Source of the DNA: Oscillospiraceae bacterium
GTDB lineage: Bacteria; Bacillota; Clostridia; Oscillospirales; Ruminococcaceae
Assembly: GCA_017472965.1 (NCBI GenBank)
Contig: JAFUNR010000009.1
Location: forward strand, 62,001 to 126,000
Length of the DNA: 64,000 bases
Direction: 5' to 3'
In this document: positions 1,031 to 17,741 of the stretch, in pieces
How the letters are laid out: each line of letters starts with the position of its first letter
Numbering within the stretch: position 1 is the stretch's first letter
Made by a program: the position numbers and the translations under genes
Notes under the pieces: model-generated
The model's input: the letters and a program-made list of their open reading frames with translations, nothing else
What the model was told of the DNA's origin: nothing
Database searches by the model: none

Positions 1031-2746
1031 TCATTCGGCGGTAAAGCAGACCCTTATCGAAGTACCTTTGTCCGGCTCGCTTTGCAGCAAGATCCTGCCG
1101 CCGTGCATCAGCGCGGCGTGCTTGACGATGGAAAGCCCCAGACCGGTACCGCCGATGCGGCGGGAGTGACTTTTATCCACCCGGTAAAAGCGCTCGAACA
1201 CACGGGACTGGTGCTCCTTCGGGATGCCGATGCCGGTATCCGTTACCTCGACAAACGGGATCTCCCGTCCGCTGTCGTTCTGCACCCCCACACGCACGCA
1301 GACACTGCCGCCCGGACGATTGTATTTGATGGCATTGTCGCACAAATTGGCGATCAGCTCGTGCAGAATGGCAGGAACACCCTGCAGCTCGGCTCTTTCC
1401 CCCTGCAGTGTCAGCGTCACCTGTGCACGCGCCGCGGCATCCGCCAGCTCATCCGTCACCTGCTTTGCCGCAGCCAGCAGATCCACCGATTCCTTTTTCA
1501 TGGCGATGCCGCCGGCATCCAGCTGGGAAAGCCGCAGAATATCCTCCACCAGCCGGATCATCCGGCCGGACTGTGCGTAAATATCCTGTGCAAAGCCGGG
1601 GATATCCTCCGGCTTCACGATACCGCCGGCCAGCAGCTCGGCTGAACCGTGGATCGCCGTCAGCGGCGTCTTAAGCTCATGGGATACATTGGCGGTGAAC
1701 TCCCGACGCAGTCTTTCCCTTTCGGCACGCTCGGTGATATCCACCATCAGCAGAACGGCGCCGGTCAGCCGGCCGGTATCGTCCGGCTTCTCCGCCCCTC
1801 CCCGCTCCTGTTCCGTCCCGCCGAACACAGGGTCCGCAAGCAGCTCGAACAGCCGTCCATTCACCGTCAGCTGTACGCTGCTGCGCTGCCCTTTGAGCGC
1901 ATCGCCGACCACCCGACAGAAATCACGGCTGCGGTTGAGCAGCAGCACATTGTGCCCCACCGCACCGCCGGGCCGCTGAAAAAATGCCGCCATGCTGGCA
2001 TTGCACAGCAGGACCTCGGCATTGGCATCAATCAGCAGCATACCCTCGCTCATATTATCCGCCAGCACGGCAAATTCCCTTTGACGGCGGCCCAGCTCTT
2101 CCATCTGGGCGGCAATGCGGGAATTCTGATCCTGCAGCCGCGCCACCAGCGGGCCGAGTTCCTCATAAATATCCTCTTTCACAGGCGGTGCTTTCGGATC
2201 CAATGTACTGATCGGATGCATGATCCCGCGGGAAAGGTTTTCCGCCAGAACGGCGCACAGCAGCACAAGAAACACCGCAGCCGTCAGCAGCAGAGGCACC
2301 ATCCGCCCCACCAGTGCCCAGACCGTGGCCTGTGCTTTCGCAAGACGCAGTACACTGCCATCGGAAAGGCGCACAGCGTAATAGCAGGTTTTTTCCGCCA
2401 TCGTATCGGAACGGCGCTGAGCGCTGCCCTCGCCCTGCGACATCGCCTGCGCGATCTCGTCACGGGCCGCGTGATTTTCCATGGAACCGGCCTGTACACG
2501 GTTATCAAAAAGCACCGTGCCATCCTTCCCCACCAGCGTGATCCTGTCATCTTCCTCCGGCAGAGTCTGTAAAAATTCCACTCCGTACTTCTCTGTCCCG
2601 GTGCAAAGGTATTCCGCACGGACGCGCAGTTCTTCGGTCAGACTGGCATCAAAATGCGCATACAGAAAAAGCAGCGTCAGCAGCATGCTCAGCAGCAGAA
2701 CACCCAGACAGGTATATATAATAGAATAATAGATCCTTCTGGTCAT
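1031..2746 (-). CDS. Sensor histidine kinase, PhoR-like (PAS-HisKA-HATPase)
   Basis: Membrane sensor kinase of 571 residues. It has transmembrane segments at about 9-29 and 145-168 flanking an extracytoplasmic sensor region. A PAS-like domain spans about 223-345. The HisKA box has the phosphorylated His at about 356 (SHELKTPL). The ATPase motifs are the N box (N471), DTGIGIP (503-509) and GGTGLGL (532-538). This domain order is that of PhoR/WalK kinases. It lies 67 bases after the OmpR-type regulator on the same strand, and the adjacent Na/Pi carrier makes phosphate sensing the best guess. A strong hairpin without a T tract sits between regulator and kinase. The ATG has AAGG seven bases upstream. 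Confidence 0.9.
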   Translation of the reverse strand: MTRRIYYSIIYTCLGVLLLSMLLTLLFLYAHFDASLTEELRVRAEYLCTGTEKYGVEFLQTLPEEDDRITLVGKDGTVLFDNRVQAGSMENHAARDEIAQAMSQGEGSAQRRSDTMAEKTCYYAVRLSDGSVLRLAKAQATVWALVGRMVPLLLTAAVFLVLLCAVLAENLSRGIMHPISTLDPKAPPVKEDIYEELGPLVARLQDQNSRIAAQMEELGRRQREFAVLADNMSEGMLLIDANAEVLLCNASMAAFFQRPGGAVGHNVLLLNRSRDFCRVVGDALKGQRSSVQLTVNGRLFELLADPVFGGTEQERGGAEKPDDTGRLTGAVLLMVDITERAERERLRREFTANVSHELKTPLTAIHGSAELLAGGIVKPEDIPGFAQDIYAQSGRMIRLVEDILRLSQLDAGGIAMKKESVDLLAAAKQVTDELADAAARAQVTLTLQGERAELQGVPAILHELIANLCDNAIKYNRPGGSVCVRVGVQNDSGREIPFVEVTDTGIGIPKEHQSRVFERFYRVDKSHSRRIGGTGLGLSIVKHAALMHGGRILLQSEPDKGTSIRVCFTAE

Positions 2747-2769
2747 ACAAAAACCTTACTGTATCAGAC

Positions 2770-2807
2770 GGCCGGCGCACCGGAGCAGCGCTCCGTTTCC
2801 GCCGGCC
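2770..2807 (-). other. Strong intergenic hairpin between regulator and kinase genes
   Basis: Arms GGCCGGCG (2770-2777) and CGCCGGCC (2800-2807) enclose a second perfect stem, CGGAGC (2781-2786) with GCTCCG (2790-2795). No T tract follows, so it is not a standard terminator. It may act as an RNA-stabilising or processing element that lowers kinase expression relative to the regulator. Confidence 0.6.
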
Positions 2808-2813
2808 AACACT

Positions 2814-3485
2814 TTATTCACTCCGCAAACGGTAGCCCACGCCGCGCACGGTCTCGATCAGTTCCCCGCCCGCACCAAGCTTGGTGCGCAGAGTCTTGAT
2901 ATGCACATCCACCGTACGGTTTTCACCGTCGTAATCGTAGCCCCAGATGCGCTGCAGCAGCTCGTCCCGATCAAAGGCTTTCCCGGGGCGGGAGCAGAAC
3001 AGCCGCAGAAGCTCATACTCTTTATATGTAAGAATAACCTCCTGCCCGTTCACACGCACCTGATGGCTTTCGGTATCCAGCTGCAGCACCCCGCAGCTGT
3101 AAGCGACATTTTCCTGCTCCGGTTTTGTGCGGCGCAGCAGCGCACGGATGCGGGAGATCAGCTCCATTGTACCGAACGGCTTGCAGACATAGTCATCCGC
3201 ACCGCTGTCCAAACCTACCACACGGTCGTATTCCGTGGTCTTTGCCGTCAGCATGATCACCGGCAGACGCTCTGTCGTCTTCTGCGCACGCAGTCGGCGC
3301 AGCACGCTCAGGCCGTCCTCGTCCGGCAGCATGATGTCCAGCAGCACCAGCTCCGGCGCTTCTTTTTCCACCGCAGCCCAGAAATCCGCAGCCAGCTCAA
3401 AGCCCTGCGCCTCCAGGCCGGTGTTATTCAGTGCATACAGTACAAATTTACGGATGCTCTCGTCATCCTCCAGCAGATAGATCAT
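2814..3485 (-). CDS. OmpR/PhoB-family response regulator
   Basis: DNA-binding response regulator of 223 residues. The receiver domain (1-120) has acidic residues EDD at 6-8, phosphoacceptor D50 (LLDIMLPD), and the conserved Thr and Lys in LTAKT and VCKPFG. The C-terminal winged helix (about 130-222) ends with the VRGVGYRL motif typical of the OmpR class. It starts seven bases after the HD-domain gene stop, with GAGGGG as ribosome binding site, and precedes its cognate kinase. Paired with a PhoR-like kinase beside a phosphate carrier, it is best read as PhoP/PhoB-like. That assignment rests on context. Confidence 0.9.
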   Translation of the reverse strand: MIYLLEDDESIRKFVLYALNNTGLEAQGFELAADFWAAVEKEAPELVLLDIMLPDEDGLSVLRRLRAQKTTERLPVIMLTAKTTEYDRVVGLDSGADDYVCKPFGTMELISRIRALLRRTKPEQENVAYSCGVLQLDTESHQVRVNGQEVILTYKEYELLRLFCSRPGKAFDRDELLQRIWGYDYDGENRTVDVHIKTLRTKLGAGGELIETVRGVGYRLRSE

Positions 3486-5374: not shown

Positions 5375-5464
5375 GGTATTTCAAAAAGCCTTCTGACACA
5401 CAGGTGTAAAATTTGCGTAAAACCGGACGAAAAATCTGCCGTAAAACCGCATGACGGATACAAC

Positions 5465-5493
5465 TTGATAACGAACGCATGATAGTATATCAT
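5465..5493 (+). promoter_or_regulatory. Candidate promoter of the second two-component operon
   Basis: TTGATA (5465-5470) and TATCAT (5488-5493) are spaced 17 bases apart, about 60 bases before the regulator start codon. The -10 is imperfect, and a TATAGC just downstream is an alternative. Confidence 0.45.
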
Positions 5494-5553: not shown

Positions 5554-6228
5554 ATGGCATACATACTCATCGCAGAGGACGAAGCCCCGCTGAACCGGCT
5601 GCTGGAACAGAATTTACAGCTGGTCGGCCACCGCACCCGCAGCGTATTCGACGGCGCGGCTGCGCTGGCGCTTGCCCAGCAGGAAAGCTTTGACCTTGTT
5701 TTAATGGATATTATGATGCCAGGACTTTCGGGTCTGGAAGTCAAGGCGCGGCTTCCGCAGGAGCTGCCGGTCATCTTTGTCACCGCTAAAACCGCTACAC
5801 TGGATCAGCTGCAGGGGCTGCGGCTGGGTGCGGATGATTACATCACCAAGCCCTTTGATATTCTTGTGCTGCTTGCCAGAGTGGAGGCCGTACTGCGCCG
5901 CACCCGCAAAAACACCACGCAGATGACCTTCGGCGCATGCACCATCGATACCGTTGCACGCAGCGTACAGGTGGACGGTGTGCCGGTGGAGCTGACCCCG
6001 CAGGAGTACTCCCTGCTGGAGGTGCTGGCGCTGAACCGCAATCTGGCGCTGAGCCGCGAAAAGCTTCTGGAGCTGGCATGGAGCTACGATTTCGAGGGCG
6101 GCACCCGCACCGTGGATATGCACATCCAGCGGCTGCGCAAAAAGCTGCGGCTGGAGGATCATATCCGTACCGTTTATAAATACGGTTACCGGCTGGAGGC
6201 CGACCCTATCGGAGGTGAGGCGCCGTGA
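5554..6228 (+). CDS. OmpR-family response regulator of the second two-component system
   Basis: DNA-binding response regulator of 224 residues. The receiver domain has acidic EDE at 8-10, phosphoacceptor D52 (LMDIMMPG), VTAKT and ITKPFD. The winged-helix output domain covers about 125-218 and ends TVYKYGYRL. The ATG at 5554 has GGAGG eight bases upstream, so a TTG 15 bases earlier is rejected. Its stop overlaps the GTG start of the kinase by four bases (GTGA), and the kinase in turn overlaps the first of three paralogous membrane proteins. The regulator therefore sits at the head of a five-gene operon that it probably controls. Confidence 0.92.
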   Translation: MAYILIAEDEAPLNRLLEQNLQLVGHRTRSVFDGAAALALAQQESFDLVLMDIMMPGLSGLEVKARLPQELPVIFVTAKTATLDQLQGLRLGADDYITKPFDILVLLARVEAVLRRTRKNTTQMTFGACTIDTVARSVQVDGVPVELTPQEYSLLEVLALNRNLALSREKLLELAWSYDFEGGTRTVDMHIQRLRKKLRLEDHIRTVYKYGYRLEADPIGGEAP

Positions 6229-7694
6229 CTGCAAAAGAAAGAAGTTCCCGCGCCGCGCCGGGCTTCCGTCACCGGGTATACCTGTGGGTACTGGCGCTGT
6301 TCCTTGTGTTTTTCAACGGCACAGTGCTGGCAGTGGCATGGAGCAGCAACGACAGAGCCTTTGCCTCGCAGCGGGACAAGCTGCTGACCCAACAGCAATA
6401 CATTGTGCAATCCCTTGCCGAGGATACCACTCTGATCGCCCAGAGCCGCCCGCTGGGTCTGCCCCTGCTGTATCAGCGCAAGGCGGACGAGCTTCTGGAA
6501 GAGGACATCCTGCTGTGCGTGGAGGCGGCCGGCGCCGCAACAAGCTCACTGCCCGCGGACTTTGTGCCGGATCTTATACCCGAGATCGGCCAGCGGGTCT
6601 GGTACGTCAAAGAGGTGACGGATCGCGGCCGGATGCTGGTGGCCGCCACTGCACATGACGGTTCCCACCCCATGACCGTGACCGTCTGCTTCCCCATGCA
6701 GGATTTCTTTGACGGCTGGAATGAGATGCTGCGCACCATTGCGGCGCTTTCTCTGGGCTGCAGTCTGCTGCTGGCAGCGGTTCTTTATCTGCTGCTGCGT
6801 GTGCTCACCGCACCGCTTGCCCGTCTGGAGGCCGCCACCCGCCTGCTGCGCGGCGGAAACTATTCCGCCCGCGTACCGGTGCAAAGCCGGGACGAGCTGG
6901 GAAAACTTGCCGAAAGCTTCAATGAGATGGCCGGACAGCTGGAAACACACATTGCACAGCTGCAGGATGCCGCCGAGGAAAAGCAGCGGCTGCTGGATGC
7001 ACTTTCCCACGAGCTGCGCACCCCGCTGGCGGGCATCAGCGCATCGGTGCAGTATATGCAGATGGCACGGCTGAGCGAGCAGGATTACTACGACACGCTG
7101 GAGGGCATGGCCTTTGAGACCCGACGGATGCAGAATCTTGCGGACAGCATGCTGAATCTTTCCGCGCTGCGCCACGGCGAGAAAGCGCCGGAGGAGTCCT
7201 GCAGCCTGCGCGAGATCGGCGAACGCGCCGTGGCGGTGCTTGCACCGCGCGCAAAGAACACCGGTGTGACGCTGCACATAGCCGTGGAGGAGGAGATCAC
7301 CATCCCCGGTGATCCGGTACTGCTGGAAAGCCTGCTGGTGAATCTGCTTGATAACGCCTGCAAGGCCTGCGCGCTGCAGGCCGAAGATCCTGCCGCCGAA
7401 GCCGGCTATCTGCCGCTGGTGCAGCTGCGGCTGTGCCTGCAGCAGGGACAGCCCGCCGTGCTGGTGACCGACAACGGCGCGGGTATGACGGAGGAGACTC
7501 TGCGCCGCGTGGGCGAGCCGTTCTTCCGCGAGGATAAAGCCCGCAGCCGCCGCTGGGGCGGGGCCGGTCTGGGCGTTTCCATCTGCCGCGCCATTGCCGA
7601 GGCTCACGGCGCACAGCTGCAGTATTCCTCCAAAAAGGGCAACGGCACCATCGCCTGTGTGCTGTTTGGCCAAAACGGGAGAGCCGACAAATGA
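6225..7694 (+). CDS. Sensor histidine kinase with HAMP domain
   Basis: Membrane kinase of 489 residues with a GTG start overlapping the regulator stop; GGAGG lies upstream. Transmembrane helices at about 18-39 and 170-192 bracket an extracytoplasmic sensor of about 130 residues. A HAMP linker (about 193-245) leads to HisKA with His262 (SHELRTPL), the N box with N377 (NLLDNACKA), VTDNGAGM (414-421) and GGAGLG (445-450). The layout matches BaeS/VanS-type envelope-sensing kinases. Its ATG-side coupling (ATGA overlap at 7691-7694) to the first of three unknown extracytoplasmic proteins suggests these proteins belong to the signal input or output. The ligand is unknown. Confidence 0.92.
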   Translation: MTAKERSSRAAPGFRHRVYLWVLALFLVFFNGTVLAVAWSSNDRAFASQRDKLLTQQQYIVQSLAEDTTLIAQSRPLGLPLLYQRKADELLEEDILLCVEAAGAATSSLPADFVPDLIPEIGQRVWYVKEVTDRGRMLVAATAHDGSHPMTVTVCFPMQDFFDGWNEMLRTIAALSLGCSLLLAAVLYLLLRVLTAPLARLEAATRLLRGGNYSARVPVQSRDELGKLAESFNEMAGQLETHIAQLQDAAEEKQRLLDALSHELRTPLAGISASVQYMQMARLSEQDYYDTLEGMAFETRRMQNLADSMLNLSALRHGEKAPEESCSLREIGERAVAVLAPRAKNTGVTLHIAVEEEITIPGDPVLLESLLVNLLDNACKACALQAEDPAAEAGYLPLVQLRLCLQQGQPAVLVTDNGAGMTEETLRRVGEPFFREDKARSRRWGGAGLGVSICRAIAEAHGAQLQYSSKKGNGTIACVLFGQNGRADK

Positions 7695-9607
7695 AAAAGC
7701 GAATTCTTATGACCGCACTGTATACGCTGGGGATGCTTGCGCTGAGCGGGACATCCGTGCTGCTCATCGGGCGCATGGCCGCCGCAGGCTGGCAGCTGCC
7801 GGTCATGCAAAGTGCCCCCGCCAACGGCAGCAGTGCCGTTGAACAGGTGGAAAACGAGCTGAAAGCCTACCCCTATCAGGTTCTGACACGCTCCGCCGCA
7901 GAGATTCTTTATAAGGAGGTCGCCGCAGCCGGCGATGCTTTGACTGTGCGCACCGACGGCGAGGGCTGCATCAGCGCCGCCGAGGCCGCCGCCCTTGCCG
8001 GCGGGCTGGCCGAAACGCTGTACGGCAGCGATCTTTCGGAAAAGACCATGGATCTTGTGCCCGCCGTGTATCACGGCGCCGACGGCACGCTTTCCACCGC
8101 GATCTGGCTGGCGGCCTACACCCTGCCGGATGCCGTGCAGACCGCTGCGGACGGCAGCACCCAGCCCGAAACGCAGGGCTGCTGGCTTTTCTGTCTGGAT
8201 GCGGCGGACGGCAGCCTGCTTTTCAGCCGCTGCACGGCGCTGGAGGGCGAGGCAGATGAGACTTCCGCCGGCAGGCCCTCCTTCGCTTTGAGCGACGAAG
8301 CTATGCTGGCGCTGTATGAGCGCACCCTTGCCCTTGCCGATAAGCTGGGGCTTTCCCCCGCCGCCTTCTTCGGCAGGCGCTCGCTTTCCGTTTCCCGCGG
8401 GGCGGTGCAGAAGAGCTTTTTGCGGCTGGAGGACGGCAGTGTCTGCCGGATGGTCTTTGACGAACACTTCGCCACCGGCGGGCTTTATTCCATCGGCATC
8501 GGCGAAGCCTTCACCGGTGATGTGCCCGACCCCTTCAGCTGGGTCGAGCTGCCGCTTGCTCTGCCGGAGGCGCACGCCTTGCCCGCCGCCGTACAGCTTG
8601 CCGCCGCAGGCAGCGGCAGCGCCGGACGCATCCAGAGCGCTTCCTACAGCGCAGCAAACGAAAGCTGCGCATGGGTGAACGACTATTACAGCTTCGCGTA
8701 CCCCGATTTCTTTGTATATCGCATCGATCCCCGCACCGCCACCCGCAGCCTGCTGTGCGATGCACCGGACTGCCGCCACCGGATACAGGATGGCTGCACC
8801 GCCCGCACCGGCCTGCTGAGTGAGCTTTGCGCCGGCGAGGGCGATACTGTGCAGTTGCTGGATGCGGAAAGCATCAGCGGCCTGATCCGTCAGGATGCGC
8901 TCTGGTACATCCGCCGCAGCGGCGAGGGCTATGAGCTGGTGCGCCGCGATCCTGCTGCGCAGCAGGAGGAGCCGCTCGCCGCGCTGCCTGTGCCGATGGA
9001 GCTTTTCGGCTGGATCGGCGATAAGCTGCTGCTCAGTACAGCCCACGCGGGTGTCACCGTCATCGAGACCGAAGCCGGTCTGCAGCCGCACGATGCCGGC
9101 TGGCGGCGCTCGCTGTACGCCTGCGATATCGAAACCGGCGAGCTTGTCTGCTTTTATCAGGGCGAGGAGCACACACCGCTGCTTTACGATGTTTCCAAGG
9201 GTCATCTGTGGGAATCCTCTGCCGCCCCCGCCGGCGTACAGCTCACCTGCCGCGATCTTTTCACCGGCGAAGCACTGCCGGAGATCCCCGCCGTTTTGCT
9301 GGAGGGTCTGCCGTCCGGCAGTTACCCCACCCACTGGGAGCTGGCGGGCCGGTATATGCTGCTGCGCTTTTATGAGGCCGGTGCGCCGCGGCTGTTTATG
9401 GCGGACACCCTCACCGGCGAGGCCCGCGAGCTGCCGTGGTCGGACAGCTACAATGTACTGACGATCATCGGCTGCTTTGGCGACGAGCTGCTGGTGCAGC
9501 AGACCACCACCGAAAAACACCGCTATTACCTGCTGGCGCTGACCGGGCTTTTTGAGAGCTTCCGTGCGGAGCGCCGCTGGGTACAGGATGATTTTGTCAT
9601 TGAATAA
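7691..9607 (+). CDS. Membrane-anchored extracytoplasmic protein, paralog 1 of 3, unknown function
   Basis: I do not recognise a characterised homolog. The 638-residue product has one N-terminal hydrophobic segment (about 5-27) with no lipobox Cys, so it is probably a signal anchor with the body outside. Residues about 50-290 form a block shared with the next two genes, including AVEQVENELKAYP and LFCLDAADGSLLFSRCT. The second half carries a Cys/His cluster C356-x4-C361-x-H363-x5-C369, then repeats with DAGW, DIETGEL and DLFTGE that look like beta-propeller blades. Translation is coupled to the kinase (ATGA), with GGGAGAG upstream. A sensory accessory or effector of the two-component system is the simplest reading, by context only. 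Confidence 0.8.
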   Translation: MKKRILMTALYTLGMLALSGTSVLLIGRMAAAGWQLPVMQSAPANGSSAVEQVENELKAYPYQVLTRSAAEILYKEVAAAGDALTVRTDGEGCISAAEAAALAGGLAETLYGSDLSEKTMDLVPAVYHGADGTLSTAIWLAAYTLPDAVQTAADGSTQPETQGCWLFCLDAADGSLLFSRCTALEGEADETSAGRPSFALSDEAMLALYERTLALADKLGLSPAAFFGRRSLSVSRGAVQKSFLRLEDGSVCRMVFDEHFATGGLYSIGIGEAFTGDVPDPFSWVELPLALPEAHALPAAVQLAAAGSGSAGRIQSASYSAANESCAWVNDYYSFAYPDFFVYRIDPRTATRSLLCDAPDCRHRIQDGCTARTGLLSELCAGEGDTVQLLDAESISGLIRQDALWYIRRSGEGYELVRRDPAAQQEEPLAALPVPMELFGWIGDKLLLSTAHAGVTVIETEAGLQPHDAGWRRSLYACDIETGELVCFYQGEEHTPLLYDVSKGHLWESSAAPAGVQLTCRDLFTGEALPEIPAVLLEGLPSGSYPTHWELAGRYMLLRFYEAGAPRLFMADTLTGEARELPWSDSYNVLTIIGCFGDELLVQQTTTEKHRYYLLALTGLFESFRAERRWVQDDFVIE

Positions 9608-9625
9608 AAGAGAGAGGAGCGTTCC

Positions 9626-11734
9626 ATGAAAAAGCATTTGCTGCCTGTTTTATGCATTGCCGCGCTGCTGGCGGCGGGTCTGGGGCTTTTGTTCGGCCTT
9701 GGCCGCATTGCAGAAAACGGCTGGCTTTCGCCGGGTACGCAGGATGCTCCCTCTGTACACGATACCGCCGCCGAACAGGTGGAAAACGAGCTGAAGGCCT
9801 ATCCCTACCGCTCGATGACGCTTTCCGCCGCCGAGATCCTGTATGCGGAGATCCGCAATGCCTCCGGTGCAGAGCTGATCGACGAGCGGATGGATCACAG
9901 CGGCCTGATCAGCGCCGCCGAGGCCGCCGCTCTTGCGGGCGGGCTGGCCGAAACGCTGTACGGAACGGATCTTTCCGGAACAACGATGGATGCCCTGCCG
10001 CTGACGGTTTTCCCCGGTGAGCTGTGCGCCGAAGGAAAAGAGGTGTGGGTGATCGCCTGCATTCTGCCCGGCACGGAACAGTCCTCGCAAAACGGCGGCG
10101 CGCATTACGCCGCAGCCGGCTGCCGGCTTTTCTGTCTGGATGCAGCGGACGGCAGCCTGCTTTTCAGCCGCTGCACGGCGGCGGAGGGCGAAAGAGATAA
10201 AACTGCGCCCGGCCCTGCCGAATGCATCGATGACGATACCATGCTGCGGCTTTACGAGCGTACCCTTGCGCTGGGCGAAGCGCTGGGGCTGAAAGCCGAT
10301 GCCTTTACCGCACACCGGCTGAACACTGCCTACCGCGGCGGCGTGCTGTGCAGCTTTCTGCGGCTGGAGGACGGACGCATCTGCCGCATGATCTTTGACG
10401 AGGAATACAGAACAGACAGCCTGTATGAGCTCATCATTGCCGAACAGACATATCTGCCCGCAGCGGATGACATCATGCCCGCACAGGCCGCGCAGCCGCG
10501 GTCGCTGTCATGGCTTTCGCTGCCGCTGGCGCTTTCACAGGAAAACGGTCTGCCCGCCGCCGAAGCCCTTGCCCAAGCACAGCCCGGCCGCAGCACGGTC
10601 TACGCCCAGAACACCAACTATCCCGTAGAAGCCGAAGGCGGTTTCTACCTATACGAATATATCCCGGATCTGGGCGGACAGCTGCTCACCTTTCTGGATG
10701 CCGGCACCGCCGTGCAGCGGCCGGCGTGTGAAAAGCCGGGCTGCACCCACAGCACGCCCGTTGAATGCCCCGCCAGACCTGTCAGCTCCCCCGCTGTGGT
10801 TTCGGATGCGGACGGTTCGCTTTACTATGTCGAAGACGGCTACTACACGCTGGATCATTTCAACAGAATCAAATACGGCGCTATCCGGAAGATCCTGCCG
10901 CAAAGCGGCTCGGTCTTTCTGTACAGCCTTTCTGAAGGTCAGTATTATCAAAGCGCCATTGCCCACAGCGGAACGGTTTATGCTGTGAGCATGCGCCGCG
11001 CCGGCGAAGGGACACAGGCTGCATACACGCTGGAAAGCTATACCCCACCCGCCGATAAAGCCAGTTCAACACAGTGGAACGCGGACGATAAACCGCAGAC
11101 ACTGGCACAGCTGCCCGGTTTGATGTTTTTCGGCGGTGTGCTGGACGAGTATCTTCTGCTCACCATCAATCACTGGGCGCTGCAGCCGATACAGGGCGAA
11201 CACGGTCTGCAGCCCCGCGACGCGGGCTGGATGGAATCCTGGTTTGCTTTTTCCACCCAAACCCATAAGCTGACCCGACTTTACACGCTCCCTGACACTC
11301 AGTCCGACTTTGTAACGGCATCAGATGTCCAAACCGGACGGCTGTGGCAGGCGGCGCTTTCCGAGGGTGTTCTTACCCTGCAGGCGACGGATCTTTTCAC
11401 TGGAAAACAATCCGCTGCCATTGCGCCGGTCCGGGTCCCCCTCGGCGACGGCACCCGGCTCAGCGAGCTTTTCCAGACAAAGGATCACCTTCTTCTTACC
11501 TTCTGGAAGGAAAACCGACTTCAATATCTTGTTGTGGAGCTTGGCACCGGCAGCTTCGCCATGTATCCGGCCGGCCAGAACTTTTACCAGATCGCCGGCA
11601 GCTGCGGCGACGAGCTGCTCATCAAGGCTTACGAAGCGGAAGGAGCTTCCTATTTCTTCCTCAACCTGCCGGAGCTGCTGCACGGACGCACACAGATGCG
11701 CCCTGTACAGAAAGAACTTTCCCCGACAAAATGA
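9626..11734 (+). CDS. Membrane-anchored extracytoplasmic protein, paralog 2 of 3, unknown function
   Basis: Second paralog, 702 residues, 18 bases after the first, with AGAGGAG as ribosome binding site. It has a signal anchor at about 6-29, then RIAENGWLSPGTQDAP, EQVENELKAYPYR and LFCLDAADGSLLFSRCT, all shared with paralog 1, in places nearly identical at DNA level. The Cys/His cluster is C368-x4-C373-x-H375-x5-C381. The later blocks LQPRDAGW and DLFTGK match the other copies. It is about 60 residues longer than the others, from added sequence between the cluster and the C-terminal blades. Function unknown; a metal-binding or redox role for the cluster is a guess. Confidence 0.8.
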   Translation: MKKHLLPVLCIAALLAAGLGLLFGLGRIAENGWLSPGTQDAPSVHDTAAEQVENELKAYPYRSMTLSAAEILYAEIRNASGAELIDERMDHSGLISAAEAAALAGGLAETLYGTDLSGTTMDALPLTVFPGELCAEGKEVWVIACILPGTEQSSQNGGAHYAAAGCRLFCLDAADGSLLFSRCTAAEGERDKTAPGPAECIDDDTMLRLYERTLALGEALGLKADAFTAHRLNTAYRGGVLCSFLRLEDGRICRMIFDEEYRTDSLYELIIAEQTYLPAADDIMPAQAAQPRSLSWLSLPLALSQENGLPAAEALAQAQPGRSTVYAQNTNYPVEAEGGFYLYEYIPDLGGQLLTFLDAGTAVQRPACEKPGCTHSTPVECPARPVSSPAVVSDADGSLYYVEDGYYTLDHFNRIKYGAIRKILPQSGSVFLYSLSEGQYYQSAIAHSGTVYAVSMRRAGEGTQAAYTLESYTPPADKASSTQWNADDKPQTLAQLPGLMFFGGVLDEYLLLTINHWALQPIQGEHGLQPRDAGWMESWFAFSTQTHKLTRLYTLPDTQSDFVTASDVQTGRLWQAALSEGVLTLQATDLFTGKQSAAIAPVRVPLGDGTRLSELFQTKDHLLLTFWKENRLQYLVVELGTGSFAMYPAGQNFYQIAGSCGDELLIKAYEAEGASYFFLNLPELLHGRTQMRPVQKELSPTK

Positions 11735-11761
11735 CCCCGCCGATCACGAAAAGGAGCACCC

Positions 11762-13765
11762 ATGAAGCAACCGAAATACCCGCCCCTGCTTTGCGCCGCA
11801 GCGCTCTTTCTGCTCAGCGCTGCGGGCGTGCTGCTGCTTGGCCGCGCCGCGGAAAAAAGCTGGCTTGCCCCGGGTGTGCAGGATGCACCCGTCACGCACG
11901 ATACCGCTGTTGAACAGGTGGAAAGCGAGCTGAAAAGCTATCCTGTACGCGTGCTGACGCTGCGCACCGCCGCACTGCTTTACACGGATTTTTCCGGCAG
12001 CCGGCAGAATGATTTTCTGGAGGCCGACCCGGATTCCGCAGCGGTTTCCGCACAGAAGGCCGCCGCGCTGGCCGGCGAATACGCGCTGGCGCTTTACGGC
12101 AGGGAGCTTTCCGGTCAGACCGCCGATGCGCTGCTGCTGAGCGGCAAAAAAGGGCAGCCGTACTGGTGGATCGGCATCCCGCAGGAGGATGCGCAGAAAG
12201 CAGAGGACAGCCTGCCCGCCGCACTGTGCTTCCGCATCGATGCCGCCGACGGCCGGCTGCTGTATTCCGCCCGCCTGCCGCAGGCAGAGCCGGACGGCAT
12301 ACCCGCACAAAGCACGCTCCAGCGCTACGATACCCTGAGCTACGGCACGGTCAGCTTTCTTTTGCAGGATGCGCTGCGCCGGTGCGAGGCGCTTTCCCTT
12401 TCGCCGCAAAAATGCCACATCGGTGTGGACGGCACTGCCGATCACGGTTATCTGCCGCAGGTTTTTCTGCTGCTGGAGGATGACTGCGCCTGCACGCTGC
12501 ACTACGCTGCGCCGGACGGCGCGGGCGGGCTGTACCGGTTTGAAGCGGGCGAGAAAAATGCTTTGCTTTCGCTGGAGCCCATGCTGGACGAGGAATTTTC
12601 CTTCACCGCACTGCCGCTGCAGCCGGAAGCTGTGCCGCAGTTGCCCGCCGCACACGAGCTTGCTTTGCAGCAGGATACCGGCACGCTGATCCCGCTCAAT
12701 TCCCTGCATGTCTCCGCTTTCTTTGCCGCGCCAAAGGGCGTCTATCTGTGCGAGCCGGTCACTGTCCCCCACTATCGCCAGCTAATGTATCTGGATGCGC
12801 AGGCCGGCACGCGGCAGGTGCTGTGCAGCCGGGAAGGCTGTACCCACACCACAAGCGCCTGTCCGGCGTGCTTTTCCCAATTGCAGCAGCCCATTGCCGT
12901 GCAGGATGAGCTTTATCTGTACGGTCAGCTTGACACCGGCGGGGAGTATTCCCTGCGGCACCTGACAGCCGACGGCAACTGGGAAATGCTTTTTTCCACC
13001 GACCAGACCTACGCTCCCATCCAGAGCATGGTTTTGCGCGGGGATACTCTTTACGCCACCGCCTTCCGCGATGCCTCCACCATGTGCCTTGAGCGCATCG
13101 GCCTGCCGCAGGGCAAGCGGGAAACGCTGACCGAACTGCCCTTTCCCATGCAGCTTGCGGGCAGCATCGGAAGCCGGCTGCTGCTGACCGCAGGCGGCCG
13201 TGCCAATCTGGTGATAACGGACGATGCCGGTATGCATCTGACCGATCCCGGCTTTGTCAACTGCATCTACGCCTATGATCTGGATACCGGCGAACTGACG
13301 CAGCTTTACAAGGGAACGGAGTTCTTCCATCTGCATCCTGCCGCCGGCGTGCGCTGGCTTTCCCCCAAAGAAGGAAAGCCGCTGCAGTACATCTGCTTCG
13401 ATCTTTTCACCGGTGATGAGCTCTGCCGGTTTTCACCCGCCGAGCCGCAGCTGAAATACCCCGAGCTGCATACAGAGCTGCTTGCTGAGGGCGGCGTGCT
13501 GAGCTGCTCCTCTTTGCCGGAATATCTCTGCCTGCTTTCGGTAGACGGGCAGCTGTGCGAGCGCCGCTTCACCCTGCCGCAGCACCCGCTGCACCGGCCG
13601 GTCTGCACCGTGAACGGCAGCATCCTTTTCCGTATACCGGCGACCCGTGATATGGGAGATTTCCGGTACCGCTATTTCCTTTTGCCGCAGGCGGTGTTTT
13701 CCGGTGCGGAAACCGCGCCCGCCGTTACCGACATTCAGGATCTCTTCGCGTATTATCCCGCATAA
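11762..13765 (+). CDS. Membrane-anchored extracytoplasmic protein, paralog 3 of 3, unknown function
   Basis: Third and most divergent paralog, 667 residues, 27 bases after the second, with AAAAGGAG upstream. It has a signal anchor at about 8-28 followed by GRAAEKSWLAPGVQDAP and VEQVESELKSYP, matching the N-terminal block of paralog 2. FRIDAADGRLLYSARL replaces the DAADGSLLFSRCT segment. The cluster is C355-x4-C360-x-H362-x4-C367, with an extra C370. C-terminal blade-like blocks include YAYDLDTGELTQLYKG and CFDLFTGDEL. Last gene of the unit, followed within six bases of its stop by a terminator. Function unknown. Confidence 0.8.
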   Translation: MKQPKYPPLLCAAALFLLSAAGVLLLGRAAEKSWLAPGVQDAPVTHDTAVEQVESELKSYPVRVLTLRTAALLYTDFSGSRQNDFLEADPDSAAVSAQKAAALAGEYALALYGRELSGQTADALLLSGKKGQPYWWIGIPQEDAQKAEDSLPAALCFRIDAADGRLLYSARLPQAEPDGIPAQSTLQRYDTLSYGTVSFLLQDALRRCEALSLSPQKCHIGVDGTADHGYLPQVFLLLEDDCACTLHYAAPDGAGGLYRFEAGEKNALLSLEPMLDEEFSFTALPLQPEAVPQLPAAHELALQQDTGTLIPLNSLHVSAFFAAPKGVYLCEPVTVPHYRQLMYLDAQAGTRQVLCSREGCTHTTSACPACFSQLQQPIAVQDELYLYGQLDTGGEYSLRHLTADGNWEMLFSTDQTYAPIQSMVLRGDTLYATAFRDASTMCLERIGLPQGKRETLTELPFPMQLAGSIGSRLLLTAGGRANLVITDDAGMHLTDPGFVNCIYAYDLDTGELTQLYKGTEFFHLHPAAGVRWLSPKEGKPLQYICFDLFTGDELCRFSPAEPQLKYPELHTELLAEGGVLSCSSLPEYLCLLSVDGQLCERRFTLPQHPLHRPVCTVNGSILFRIPATRDMGDFRYRYFLLPQAVFSGAETAPAVTDIQDLFAYYPA

Positions 13766-13770
13766 AAAAC

Positions 13771-13826
13771 ACTCCGGCGAACGGGGACTTCCCAAAGAAG
13801 CACCTCTTGCCGGAGCGTTTTTATTT
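13771..13826. terminator. Bidirectional terminator between convergent operons
   Basis: The arms CTCCGGC (13772-13778) and GCCGGAG (13809-13815) are followed by GTTTTTATTTT on the plus strand and by TGTTTTTTATG on the minus strand. It serves the three-paralog operon and the DUF1848 operon. Confidence 0.75.
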
Positions 13827-15521: not shown

Positions 15522-17678
15522 TTACCGGTTGCTCTGCACCGTGACGGGCAAACCCAGTTCTCTGAGCACCTCAAAGAACTGCGCCTCCAGCTCCGGTTCA
15601 CAGATATCACGGATAAAATTGATATAGACCGTACCCCCATAGGAGAGTACGCCGCAGTTGTGCGGAGCCTTTGCCTGCGGGCCGATGATGAAATCCATGC
15701 GGCGCACATGATCCGCCATACACGCCGGCATACGCACCGCCCCCAGATTGGACAGGCTCAGGCAGGATTTGCACTCGCCCACCGTATCAAAAACCGCCTT
15801 CATCACAAAATTCTTGATGAAAAGCGGCAGCAGCTTGACCGCCCACATACGCTCGCTGGATACATTGGTGGCAATGCGGGTACTCATCACCTTCCGGTTG
15901 ACTTCCAGCCCCATGTGATGATGCACGATGCTGCAGATCTCCGCAAAATCGTAATCTCCCAGCCGCGGATCCAGCTGCGGCGTGGTGTAAAGAGCAAAAT
16001 TACGCAGCGTATTGCTGCCGAACAGCGGGCGCAGATTGACCGGCAGCAGCACCTTGAGCGGCTTGCGCCGCCGGCGGGAACGCACCTTGCGCTTTTGCAG
16101 GCGCTGCAGCGCCTGCAGCATCACAGCCCCCAGAAATGCCGTCACGCTGACATGATATTCATGCGCTTTTTCCAGCATTGCCGCTGCAGGCACCGTAAAG
16201 CAGGTCAGGTGCAGAAAACCGTCCTGCTCCGGCGTGCCGGAAAGATGCCATGCGGTATCCTCGCGCCGGCTTGCATTCACCTTGCCCGCATACCGCAGGA
16301 AGCTGTCCTCCAGTTCCTCCTCTGTGGGCGCCTCCAGCCTGCCCAGCACACCGTATTCCGCCGGCACATGGATGCCATAGCGCTGGTGCAGATATTCCGC
16401 CACCAGCGTTTTCAAAAAAATCATGCCGCCGCTGCCGTCGGTGACGGCATGGAAAAACTCCACCGCAATGCGGTTGCCCCAGCACAGCACACGAAAGGCG
16501 CTGCGGCGCAGCTCTTTACGGTTCATATGCGCCAGCGGCCAGCTTTTTTCCGGCTGCAGCTCCGGCGCGGCAGGCAGCTGCTCCAGATAATACCAGAAAG
16601 CGCCCCGCCGCAGCCGCACAGCAATGGACGGAAACCGCCGCACCGTCACCTCCAGTGCGGTGCGCAGCGCCGCTTCGTCCACCGGCTCATCCATAGTGGC
16701 GGAAAGCCGGAACACATTGCTCCAGTTGCGGCGCAGTGCGGCGGGATAGATTTTGGCGGCGTTATCCAGCCGCAGCCAGCGCAGCTCGTTTTCCCGCGAG
16801 AGATGGCGGTTGAGAAACCGGTTGATCACGGTATATTCACCTGCATCCTCCGCAAGATCATACAGAAGATAGGCGTGCCAGCGATCCTGTCCCACCGACA
16901 GCCGGCTTTTACAGCCGGACGCCAGCAGCTTTTCGTGCAGCAGACGGGAATCATCCAGCATGATCTCATCGCCGCCCACAAAGATCAGTGAAGGCGGCAG
17001 CCCCTCCAGATCGCCGAAAAGCGGCGACACCAGCGGATCCATCCGGTCATTTGTATAGCTTTTTGCGTAAAAATCCAGCAAACTTTTGCTTATAGAGCAA
17101 TCCACATCCTGATTGAAACGGTAGGAATCCCCCGATGCGGTGAGATCCGTCCATGGGGAAATGGCCACGATACAGGCGGGCAGGGTCTCCTGCAGCTCTT
17201 TGAGCCGCAGGCACAGCGCATAGGCCAGACCGCCGCCGGCGCTTTCGCCGCACAGCGCGATCTGGTGCGGCGCATAGCCCTTGCTGCGCAGATAGTGCCA
17301 TGCCGTCAGCGCATCCTCCAGTGCAGCGGGGAACGGATGCTCCGGCGCAAGACGGTATGCCGCGCAGAATACCTGTACCCCCCATTCCACCGCCAGCTTG
17401 GAGCCCACGCCCTTGGCATATTCCAGGTCGCCGCAGGTATAGCCGCCGCCATGCAGATACAGCAGCACGCCCGTGCGGCGGCTCTGGCGCGGTATGACCC
17501 ACGCGCCGTCGAACCGATCAAAAGCGTGCTCATGAACGATCACCTTTTTACGCTGCATCGCGCCCATCAGTTCGCCTATTTTTTCCTGTGCGCGGCGGGT
17601 CTGCTCCAATGACGCATTGGCCAGGATCGGCTTGAGCAGATTCAGCTGTGCACGCACAAATCCGGCAGATAATGCCAC
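15522..17678 (-). CDS. Alpha/beta-hydrolase fused to a condensation-type acyltransferase domain
   Basis: Cytoplasmic two-domain protein of 718 residues. The N-terminal half is a hormone-sensitive-lipase-type alpha/beta hydrolase: oxyanion-hole HGGGY, nucleophile elbow GESAGGG, and a late Asp/His pair (VGGDE, RWHAY). The second half resembles condensation or alcohol-acyltransferase domains, with FHAVTDGSGG fitting the catalytic HxxxDG motif. An ester- or amide-forming enzyme paired with an esterase is implied; the substrate is unknown. The GTG at 17678 has GGAGG seven bases upstream. An ATG at 17714 lies at the predicted -10 and is excluded. First gene of an operon with the zinc-ribbon membrane protein and the DUF1848 gene. 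Confidence 0.82.
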   Translation of the reverse strand: MALSAGFVRAQLNLLKPILANASLEQTRRAQEKIGELMGAMQRKKVIVHEHAFDRFDGAWVIPRQSRRTGVLLYLHGGGYTCGDLEYAKGVGSKLAVEWGVQVFCAAYRLAPEHPFPAALEDALTAWHYLRSKGYAPHQIALCGESAGGGLAYALCLRLKELQETLPACIVAISPWTDLTASGDSYRFNQDVDCSISKSLLDFYAKSYTNDRMDPLVSPLFGDLEGLPPSLIFVGGDEIMLDDSRLLHEKLLASGCKSRLSVGQDRWHAYLLYDLAEDAGEYTVINRFLNRHLSRENELRWLRLDNAAKIYPAALRRNWSNVFRLSATMDEPVDEAALRTALEVTVRRFPSIAVRLRRGAFWYYLEQLPAAPELQPEKSWPLAHMNRKELRRSAFRVLCWGNRIAVEFFHAVTDGSGGMIFLKTLVAEYLHQRYGIHVPAEYGVLGRLEAPTEEELEDSFLRYAGKVNASRREDTAWHLSGTPEQDGFLHLTCFTVPAAAMLEKAHEYHVSVTAFLGAVMLQALQRLQKRKVRSRRRRKPLKVLLPVNLRPLFGSNTLRNFALYTTPQLDPRLGDYDFAEICSIVHHHMGLEVNRKVMSTRIATNVSSERMWAVKLLPLFIKNFVMKAVFDTVGECKSCLSLSNLGAVRMPACMADHVRRMDFIIGPQAKAPHNCGVLSYGGTVYINFIRDICEPELEAQFFEVLRELGLPVTVQSNR

Positions 17679-17712
17679 GGTGCTCCCTCCTTTGCCTCTT
17701 TTTCTTTCTCTC

Positions 17713-17741
17713 ATTTTATCACAGAGAACAGCATATGTAAA
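17713..17741 (-). promoter_or_regulatory. Promoter of the hydrolase-condensation operon
   Basis: TTTACA (17736-17741) and TAAAAT (17713-17718) on the minus strand are 17 bases apart, with a TG one base before the -10. It places the start of transcription near 17706, downstream of the ATG at 17714. Confidence 0.75.

Follow-up and report, generated by a model that had tools for sequence, protein, structure and literature searches.

Why should a sensor histidine kinase be encoded in one operon with three different copies of an extracytoplasmic protein? We know of no identified mode of signal perception for most sensor kinases, and the question arises from a 64,000-nucleotide stretch of the genome of an Oscillospiraceae bacterium (contig JAFUNR010000009.1; hereafter, the window), in which the genes of a response regulator (RR) and a histidine kinase (HK) are followed by those of three paralogs, P1, P2 and P3. 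The first-pass annotation, made from the sequence alone, took these paralogs to be dedicated accessory sensors or effectors of the kinase, in a possible undescribed envelope-sensing system. We have compared each part of this arrangement with its relatives in other genomes.

Results

A two-component operon with three paralogous proteins

The five genes are tightly packed (Table 1): RR and HK overlap by 4 bp, as do HK and P1, and gaps of 18 and 27 bp separate P1 from P2 and P2 from P3. Together with the plus-strand coordinates and the 3' terminator, this spacing bears out the single five-gene operon that had been proposed. The one terminator claimed to close it is also confirmed, as the segment 13758-13832 has a folding energy of -29.7 kcal/mol (z -5.49), a value equalled by 0 of 200 shuffles; it is absent from the list of a simple scan restricted to loops of 3-8. 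All domains of RR (receiver and winged helix) and HK (HAMP, HisKA and HATPase_c) exceed their Pfam cutoffs, and the pair is a two-component system of the OmpR/PhoB type. In HK, hydrophobic segments starting at aa 20 and aa 172 flank an extracytoplasmic loop, roughly aa 39-171, in which the Pfam scan found no domain.

Table 1. Coordinates of the operon and its features in the window.
Feature	Position	Strand	Description or basis
Candidate RR operator, ACAACT-N5-ACAACT direct repeat	5460-5476	+	9/12 letters; 36/200 shuffles as good
Putative promoter, sigma-70-like TTGATA-17-TATCAT	5465-5493	+	Consensus scan only
RR	5554-6228	+	OmpR-type response regulator, 224 aa; Pfam Response_reg 4.8e-24, Trans_reg_C 2.2e-23
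HK	6225-7694	+	Sensor histidine kinase, 489 aa, GTG start; HAMP, HisKA, HATPase_c
P1	7691-9607	+	638 aa; signal anchor, N-domain, beta-propeller with C/C/H/C motif
P2	9626-11734	+	702 aa; signal anchor, N-domain, beta-propeller with C/C/H/C motif
P3	11762-13765	+	667 aa; signal anchor, N-domain, beta-propeller with C/C/H/C motif
N-domain, PepSY-like	P1 7943-8515; P2 9896-10456; P3 12014-12571	+	Alignment A6; hhalign to kinase-adjacent proteins
Propeller domain	P1 8615-9604; P2 10595-11731; P3 12695-13762	+	Alignment A7; PDB profile search
Intrinsic terminator between convergent genes	13765-13822	+	G+C-rich core at about 13772-13815

Two other regions of the window were noted in passing. A second RR-HK pair, PhoB/PhoR-like by eye, lies on the minus strand at 1031-3485, about 2 kb from the operon; it is distant from the P1-P3 system and forms a long branch in the RR+HK tree described below. 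A minus-strand ORF at 15522-17714 (730 aa) combines, by eye, an alpha/beta-hydrolase with an acyltransferase- or condensation-like region.

A single hydrophobic segment stands at the N-terminus of each paralog, that of P1 being the weakest (mean 1.66 over 19 aa), and the block VEQVExELKxYP is common to all three, so that the signal anchor and N-terminal block ascribed to them beforehand are both upheld, by the segments and by the alignment. P1 shares 40% identity with P2 and 31% with P3. Scans of Pfam and NCBIfam gave no credible family match for any of them, and their membership in a family of either database was rejected. The earlier statement that they match no characterised family holds at the cutoffs of these collections; it does not hold for their parts, which are recognisable by profile as a distantly PepSY-like domain and a beta-propeller. 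As read from the sequence, each of P1, P2 and P3 is the junction of an N-domain module with a propeller module. Searches of their own genome (85% complete) with the P2 protein and with the N-domain profile returned the P1-P3 genes only. A three-row profile of P1-P3 (A1) found matches in 51 of 297 family genomes, own genome counted; among the matches listed outside the own genome, those to the C-terminal part lie mostly in ORFs of 350-500 aa, and only two, both in genome G182, concern the N-terminal part.

The N-domain accompanies one branch of related kinases

Locus L034 of genome G182 reproduces the gene order of the operon, with an RR 66% and an HK 36% identical to those of the window, followed by four tandem proteins of 264-305 aa that carry the N-terminal motif of P1-P3 and lack a propeller. 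With the G182 kinase as query at 1e-40, 38 of 294 family genomes gave matches, which span the full length at 17 loci in 17 of the 294. The loci compared comprise the window, L034, the other 15 full-length kinase loci and five more distant kinase loci; the genes of the relatives were called with a codon-score script, which may have misplaced starts and N-terminal segments. No HK ortholog was found in the other genome of the genus (88% complete), whose best match (2.0e-23) covers the kinase core only. A scan of a genome collection with the P1-P3 paralogs found no relatives; a scan with the kinase, based on generic kinase patterns, returned mostly other kinases, and 6 of its 80 loci were examined. 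One locus found through the kinase, in Paenibacillus tuaregi, has the order RR-HK-partner, and its partner is itself a row of the N-domain profile.

This profile, A6, was built from 23 rows taken from kinase neighbourhoods. A tree of RR and HK with 37 rows (17 pairs with an A6-partner label, 12 lying beside C/C/H/C propellers and 8 unlabelled) splits the 17 A6-partner pairs from the 12 propeller pairs by a branch with SH-aLRT support of 100, and 14 of the 17 full-length kinase loci fall on the A6 side. On this branch and its sister branch, at least one gene without recognised family adjoins the RR-HK pair, and its product usually begins with a hydrophobic segment or a lipobox; no N-terminal hydrophobic segment was called in the partner genes of L070, L075, L082, L083, L085 and L191 and in the two of L071.

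In the family search, in which at most 11 candidates were scored per genome, A6 matched 19 of 294 genomes at 0.01. All 23 matches below 1e-30 (in 12 genomes among the 294) sit at RR-HK loci, the E-values of the profile's own rows being circular. An adjacent match was found at all 14 full-length loci of the A6 side: 12 of them below 1e-30, the other two in G218 (2.2e-6) and G151 (0.0039), which, like the class-level matches, are not among the A6 rows. In the class search, 13 of 341 genomes, own genome counted, matched A6 at 0.001. The four best matches outside the own genome (1.2e-33, 6.6e-29, 8.3e-9 and 1.8e-7) all lie directly downstream of an RR-HK pair whose RR is 55-59% identical. The gene-neighbourhood survey suggested at the outset thus supports the linkage well, the N-domain adjoining RR-HK at 14 of 14 branch loci and at the four best class matches outside the own genome.

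Weaker matches form a mixed set. One of the other eight class-level matches at 0.001 was examined: a 75-aa fragment in G791, 1.6 kb before a distant RR (31%). Of 394 genomes searched at order level, six matched A6 at 0.001; two are known loci, and the one examined among the other four has no kinase beside it. Weak matches in G169 and G080 are RpoA, that in G323 is a 715-aa secreted-looking protein with no adjoining kinase match, and that in G151:C8 has no called match at its place. Thirteen weak matches were left out of this reading (class G770, G869, G676, G835, G910, G925 and G711; order G438, G611 and G551; family G059, G152 and G084).

Profile alignment with hhalign related the N-domain of P1-P3 to several groups of kinase-adjacent proteins, with probabilities of 96% for group D (L071, L073, L074), 92% for group C (L070, L072), 79% for group S (G182) and 66% for group VP (L075, L077-L080). 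A single accessory superfamily embracing all kinase-linked anchor proteins was considered and rejected, the anchors of L084 and L085-L088 being without profile match to the N-domain. Tandem copies of the N-domain occur in G182 and G137 (four each) and in G026, G206 and G283 (two strong matches each), and tandem copies beside this kinase are therefore recurrent. That the N-domain is dedicated to one RR-HK branch appears well supported by these comparisons.

A domain only distantly resembling PepSY

Searched against the PDB, A6 gave eight matches at E up to 10. The best is a PepSY propeptide (9vy3, E 0.0073), with an alignment covering the DAxTG block and the second half; the other seven look like chance. 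The Pfam PepSY model touches 5 of the 23 A6 members, best L034:7506-8180 with 23.1 bits against a gathering cutoff of 24 (PF03413), a cutoff reached by none of P1-P3, in which no PepSY match of any kind was found. The N-domain may accordingly be called PepSY-like, only distantly, and not PepSY. An internal duplication within it was also considered; none was found, and the idea is not supported.

A propeller shared with other systems

The propeller profile A7 combines the C-terminal domains of P1-P3 with 29 lipoproteins of relatives. Against the PDB it matched 96 sequences at E up to 10, and the best 60 of these 96 are propeller proteins by name, many of them variants of one protein (Keap1). 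The matches include designed propellers, oligogalacturonate lyase, Kelch, TolB, PkwA and S9 peptidases, all of which we take to be propeller proteins. The best E-value, 1.7e-12, is a sum over the repeats of a designed propeller, the best single stretch seen reaching 1.7e-4 (3pe7). By profile, the C-terminal domain of P1-P3 is a beta-propeller, and the propeller-like blades described earlier find support at this level. The motif CxxxxCxH...CxA occurs in the propellers of P1-P3 as in the lipoproteins of relatives; its invariance among the 29 lipoproteins is circular, as these were chosen by their cysteine motif, the P1-P3 rows having been chosen otherwise.

Elsewhere, this propeller is found as a lipoprotein beside the sister kinase branch or beside an ABC transporter. 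We surveyed 50 regions (part of the A1 match list and one other), 43 of which contain the propeller as judged from profile and motif. At 21 of the 43, a match to RR or HK lies within 4 kb on the same strand, and at 26 an ABC ATPase or permease is matched within 5 kb (22 with a large permease, 4 with an ATPase alone); 10 loci have both and 6 have neither. At three of the ATPase-alone loci (L209, L211, L215) the ATPase is about 4 kb away, in L209 beside an apparently unrelated transporter. The 22 loci without RR or HK include 16 that have an ABC transporter gene instead. Since 259 OmpR-type matches were counted in about 51.6 Mb across 20 genomes with propeller loci, we estimate that some 2.5% of loci would lie beside an RR by chance. 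A recurring module of C/C/H/C propeller lipoprotein, ABC ATPase and ABC permease of about 800 aa was observed at L035, L036, L038, L039, L207, L216, L221 and others.

Paralogs commonly occurring without a kinase had been named as what would speak against a dedicated role. For the propeller this is the case at about half of the loci (22 of 43); for the N-domain the linkage holds. The claim of dedicated accessory proteins is well supported for the N-domain, with its 14 of 14 branch loci and 4 of 4 best class matches, and is half undercut for the propeller.

Fusion, duplication and divergence

At nine loci of the sister branch (L085, L087, L088, L209, L213, L226, L241, L243 and L244), HK is followed by a protein of 222-299 aa, with an N-terminal segment called in 8 of the 9, and by one or more propeller lipoproteins. 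In L086 (752 aa), anchor and propeller are fused in one protein. The own genome also holds a second RR-HK system, L205 (G000:C46, 3899-7776), with a 588-aa anchor-plus-propeller protein 9 bp after HK; derivation of the P1-P3 propeller from that system was considered and is not supported, the P1-P3 propellers forming a deep clade of their own whose placement is unsure.

The history of P1-P3 fits one fusion followed by two duplications, because the N-domain tree (three-row clade 83/79, P1+P2 99/99) and the propeller tree (supports 96 and 93) both put P3 outside P1+P2. In the N-domain tree, the four G182 copies cluster together (97/96) on long branches. The two modules of P1 and P2 differ in their divergence: N-domain and propeller are 55% and 29% identical, with dN of 0.38 and 0.82 and dS of 0.79 and 1.44, respectively. 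Such faster divergence of the P1-P2 propellers would fit separate ligands, which the first-pass annotation had named, beside a hetero-oligomer, as what the three copies might mean; comparisons involving P3 show little contrast (34-36% in the N-domain, 27% in the propeller). Two tracts of P1 and P2, inside the N-domain of genes otherwise diverged, are 88% identical in DNA (7970-8053/9908-9991, 84 nt, and 8177-8272/10118-10213, 96 nt). These tracts, together with a third-position identity of up to 0.83 between the P1 and P2 N-domains, suggest gene conversion between the two.

A candidate direct repeat upstream of the operon

Some related upstream regions share the direct repeat ACAACT-N5-ACAACT, placed ahead of an element that is -10-like by eye. 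It was first noticed in 10 regions, after which 35 were scored with mononucleotide shuffles. Among the 25 beyond those 10, eight have at most 3 of 200 shuffles as good (L075, L081, L084, L086, L087, L091, L092, L193) and 17 miss this level. In L078-L080, three loci of one genus in which the partner gene comes before RR, the repeat precedes the partner gene and matches 11 of 12 letters (0-1 of 200 shuffles). The window copy is weak and by itself not significant (36 of 200 shuffles). The shared repeat suggests autoregulation by RR. Across the own genome the pattern occurs 2 times, one of them here, against 14 for the reversed control, and no regulon can thus be derived from it.

A separate, perfect repeat, GTAAAACCG, is present at 5417 and 5441 (5417-5449; 24 bp apart), upstream of the promoter. 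The whole window has no third copy, a perfect 9-mer repeat so spaced arose in 14 of 3000 mononucleotide shuffles of the upstream region, and GTAAAACCG was not seen in the nine relatives checked.

Discussion

Comparison with known systems

Among the accessory proteins of the known systems compared here, LpqB has a propeller named by Pfam PF10647, YycH and YycI are encoded after RR and HK, and CpxP is a small soluble helical protein. The scans of P1-P3 found no match to GerMN, Gmad1 or CpxP (Pfam) and none to the YycH/YycI family (Pfam and NCBIfam), and in relatives Gmad1 appeared only at 0.066 and 0.14, in one relative each.

The Vibrio cholerae system DbfQRS resembles ours in encoding an extracytoplasmic PepSY-type protein with RR-HK; according to its published description, DbfQ binds the sensory domain of DbfS and shifts DbfS toward phosphatase activity, and PepSY genes lie near two-component genes more than 60-fold above chance and across phyla, in modules that are widespread (PMC12714742). 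P1-P3 adjoin RR-HK, as in DbfQRS-like modules, which are defined by a PepSY gene no more than four genes away from HK or RR, with a PepSY similarity that is only distant. DbfQ is described there as a single secreted PepSY protein of 135 aa (PMC12714742), whereas P1-P3 are anchored, only distantly PepSY-like, fused to propellers and present in three copies. The actinobacterial MtrAB-LpqB, sometimes termed a three-component system (PMC10714768), shares the gene order RR-HK-accessory and an accessory protein with a beta-propeller. It differs in that LpqB is a single-copy lipoprotein, P1-P3 lack GerMN and Gmad1, and HK, for which MtrB is the best NCBIfam match, scores 161.6 bits against a cutoff of 450. 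WalRK, with YycH and YycI, also has accessory membrane proteins of a sensor kinase (PMC7355866), but HK scores 140.3 bits against the WalK cutoff of 725. In CpxAR, too, an extracytoplasmic accessory protein, CpxP, alters the activity of the sensor kinase (PMC4160245).

Most likely, then, the P1-P3 system works like DbfQ in its PepSY aspect and like LpqB in its propeller, as a member of neither family. Among the titles and abstract openings listed from open-access literature, none describes a P1-P3 family. Accompaniment of two-component systems by PepSY proteins is already known, as is that of MtrAB by a propeller lipoprotein, and the possibility of an undescribed kind of system falls away.

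A proposed multi-partner sensor system and its alternatives

We favour, with a rough probability of 0.58, a multi-partner sensor system in which P1-P3 would be anchored accessory receptors that set the activity of HK. RR and HK would form the conserved two-component core, and an uncleaved signal segment would keep P1-P3 in the membrane. We infer that the N-domain would dock on the extracytoplasmic loop of HK and set its balance between kinase and phosphatase, as DbfQ does for DbfS, while the outward-facing propeller would bind a ligand or a component of the envelope. Binding or loss of the ligand would alter docking and, with it, the phosphorylation of RR, which may in turn bind the direct repeat at its own promoter and adjust the supply of the whole set. 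With several partners carrying diverged propellers, one HK could integrate several inputs. More tentatively, P1-P3 might be exchangeable receptor cartridges that combine a kinase-facing dock, its similarity kept partly by gene conversion, with propellers of the sister-branch type, so that one kinase would serve several ligands.

A tight operon is by itself no proof that P1-P3 act on HK. Sharing it with RR would also suit proteins that are mainly outputs, such as wall- or glycan-binding envelope proteins whose production RR governs and whose feedback on the kinase is CpxP-like at most. Propellers are generally known to bind carbohydrate or protein in many cases, and at one related kinase locus, L092 of a Lachnospiraceae genome, an NlpC/P60 protein (11149-11985, 3.6e-16) occupies the accessory position after RR-HK. 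Output genes, however, often also occur away from their regulator, whereas the N-domain is bound to one kinase branch with no strong match elsewhere, and we consider a mainly output role unlikely. The transporter neighbourhoods of the propeller raise a different prospect, that of receptors or immunity-like parts in the detection of antimicrobial peptides, as in modules of kinase and ABC transporter, the transporter being elsewhere or lost. A relative of one ABC permease of about 800 aa lies within 5 kb on the same strand at 22 of the 43 propeller loci, 7 of these 22 also having RR or HK within 4 kb, and ABC-transporter-like genes were seen by eye near L081 and L192, in the branch of the window kinase; but no transporter gene was read among the ORFs in or directly beside the operon, and such a role strikes us as distinctly improbable. 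We would give very little credence to a role of P1-P3 in inhibiting or chaperoning an envelope protease, the function that has been proposed for PepSY domains, with an indirect link to the kinase: the weak PepSY similarity of the N-domain family would agree with it, but the Pfam scan of the operon found no protease gene.

Anchored accessory receptors remain our preferred reading of P1-P3. In several families of the class, and at one Paenibacillus locus, an N-domain without Pfam family appears bound to a single kinase branch. The recurrent tandem copies of this domain and, in P1-P3, its fusion to a receptor-like propeller would make the operon a direct and testable case, one that bears on accessory proteins that read ligands for a kinase system and on how such parts join and multiply in evolution.
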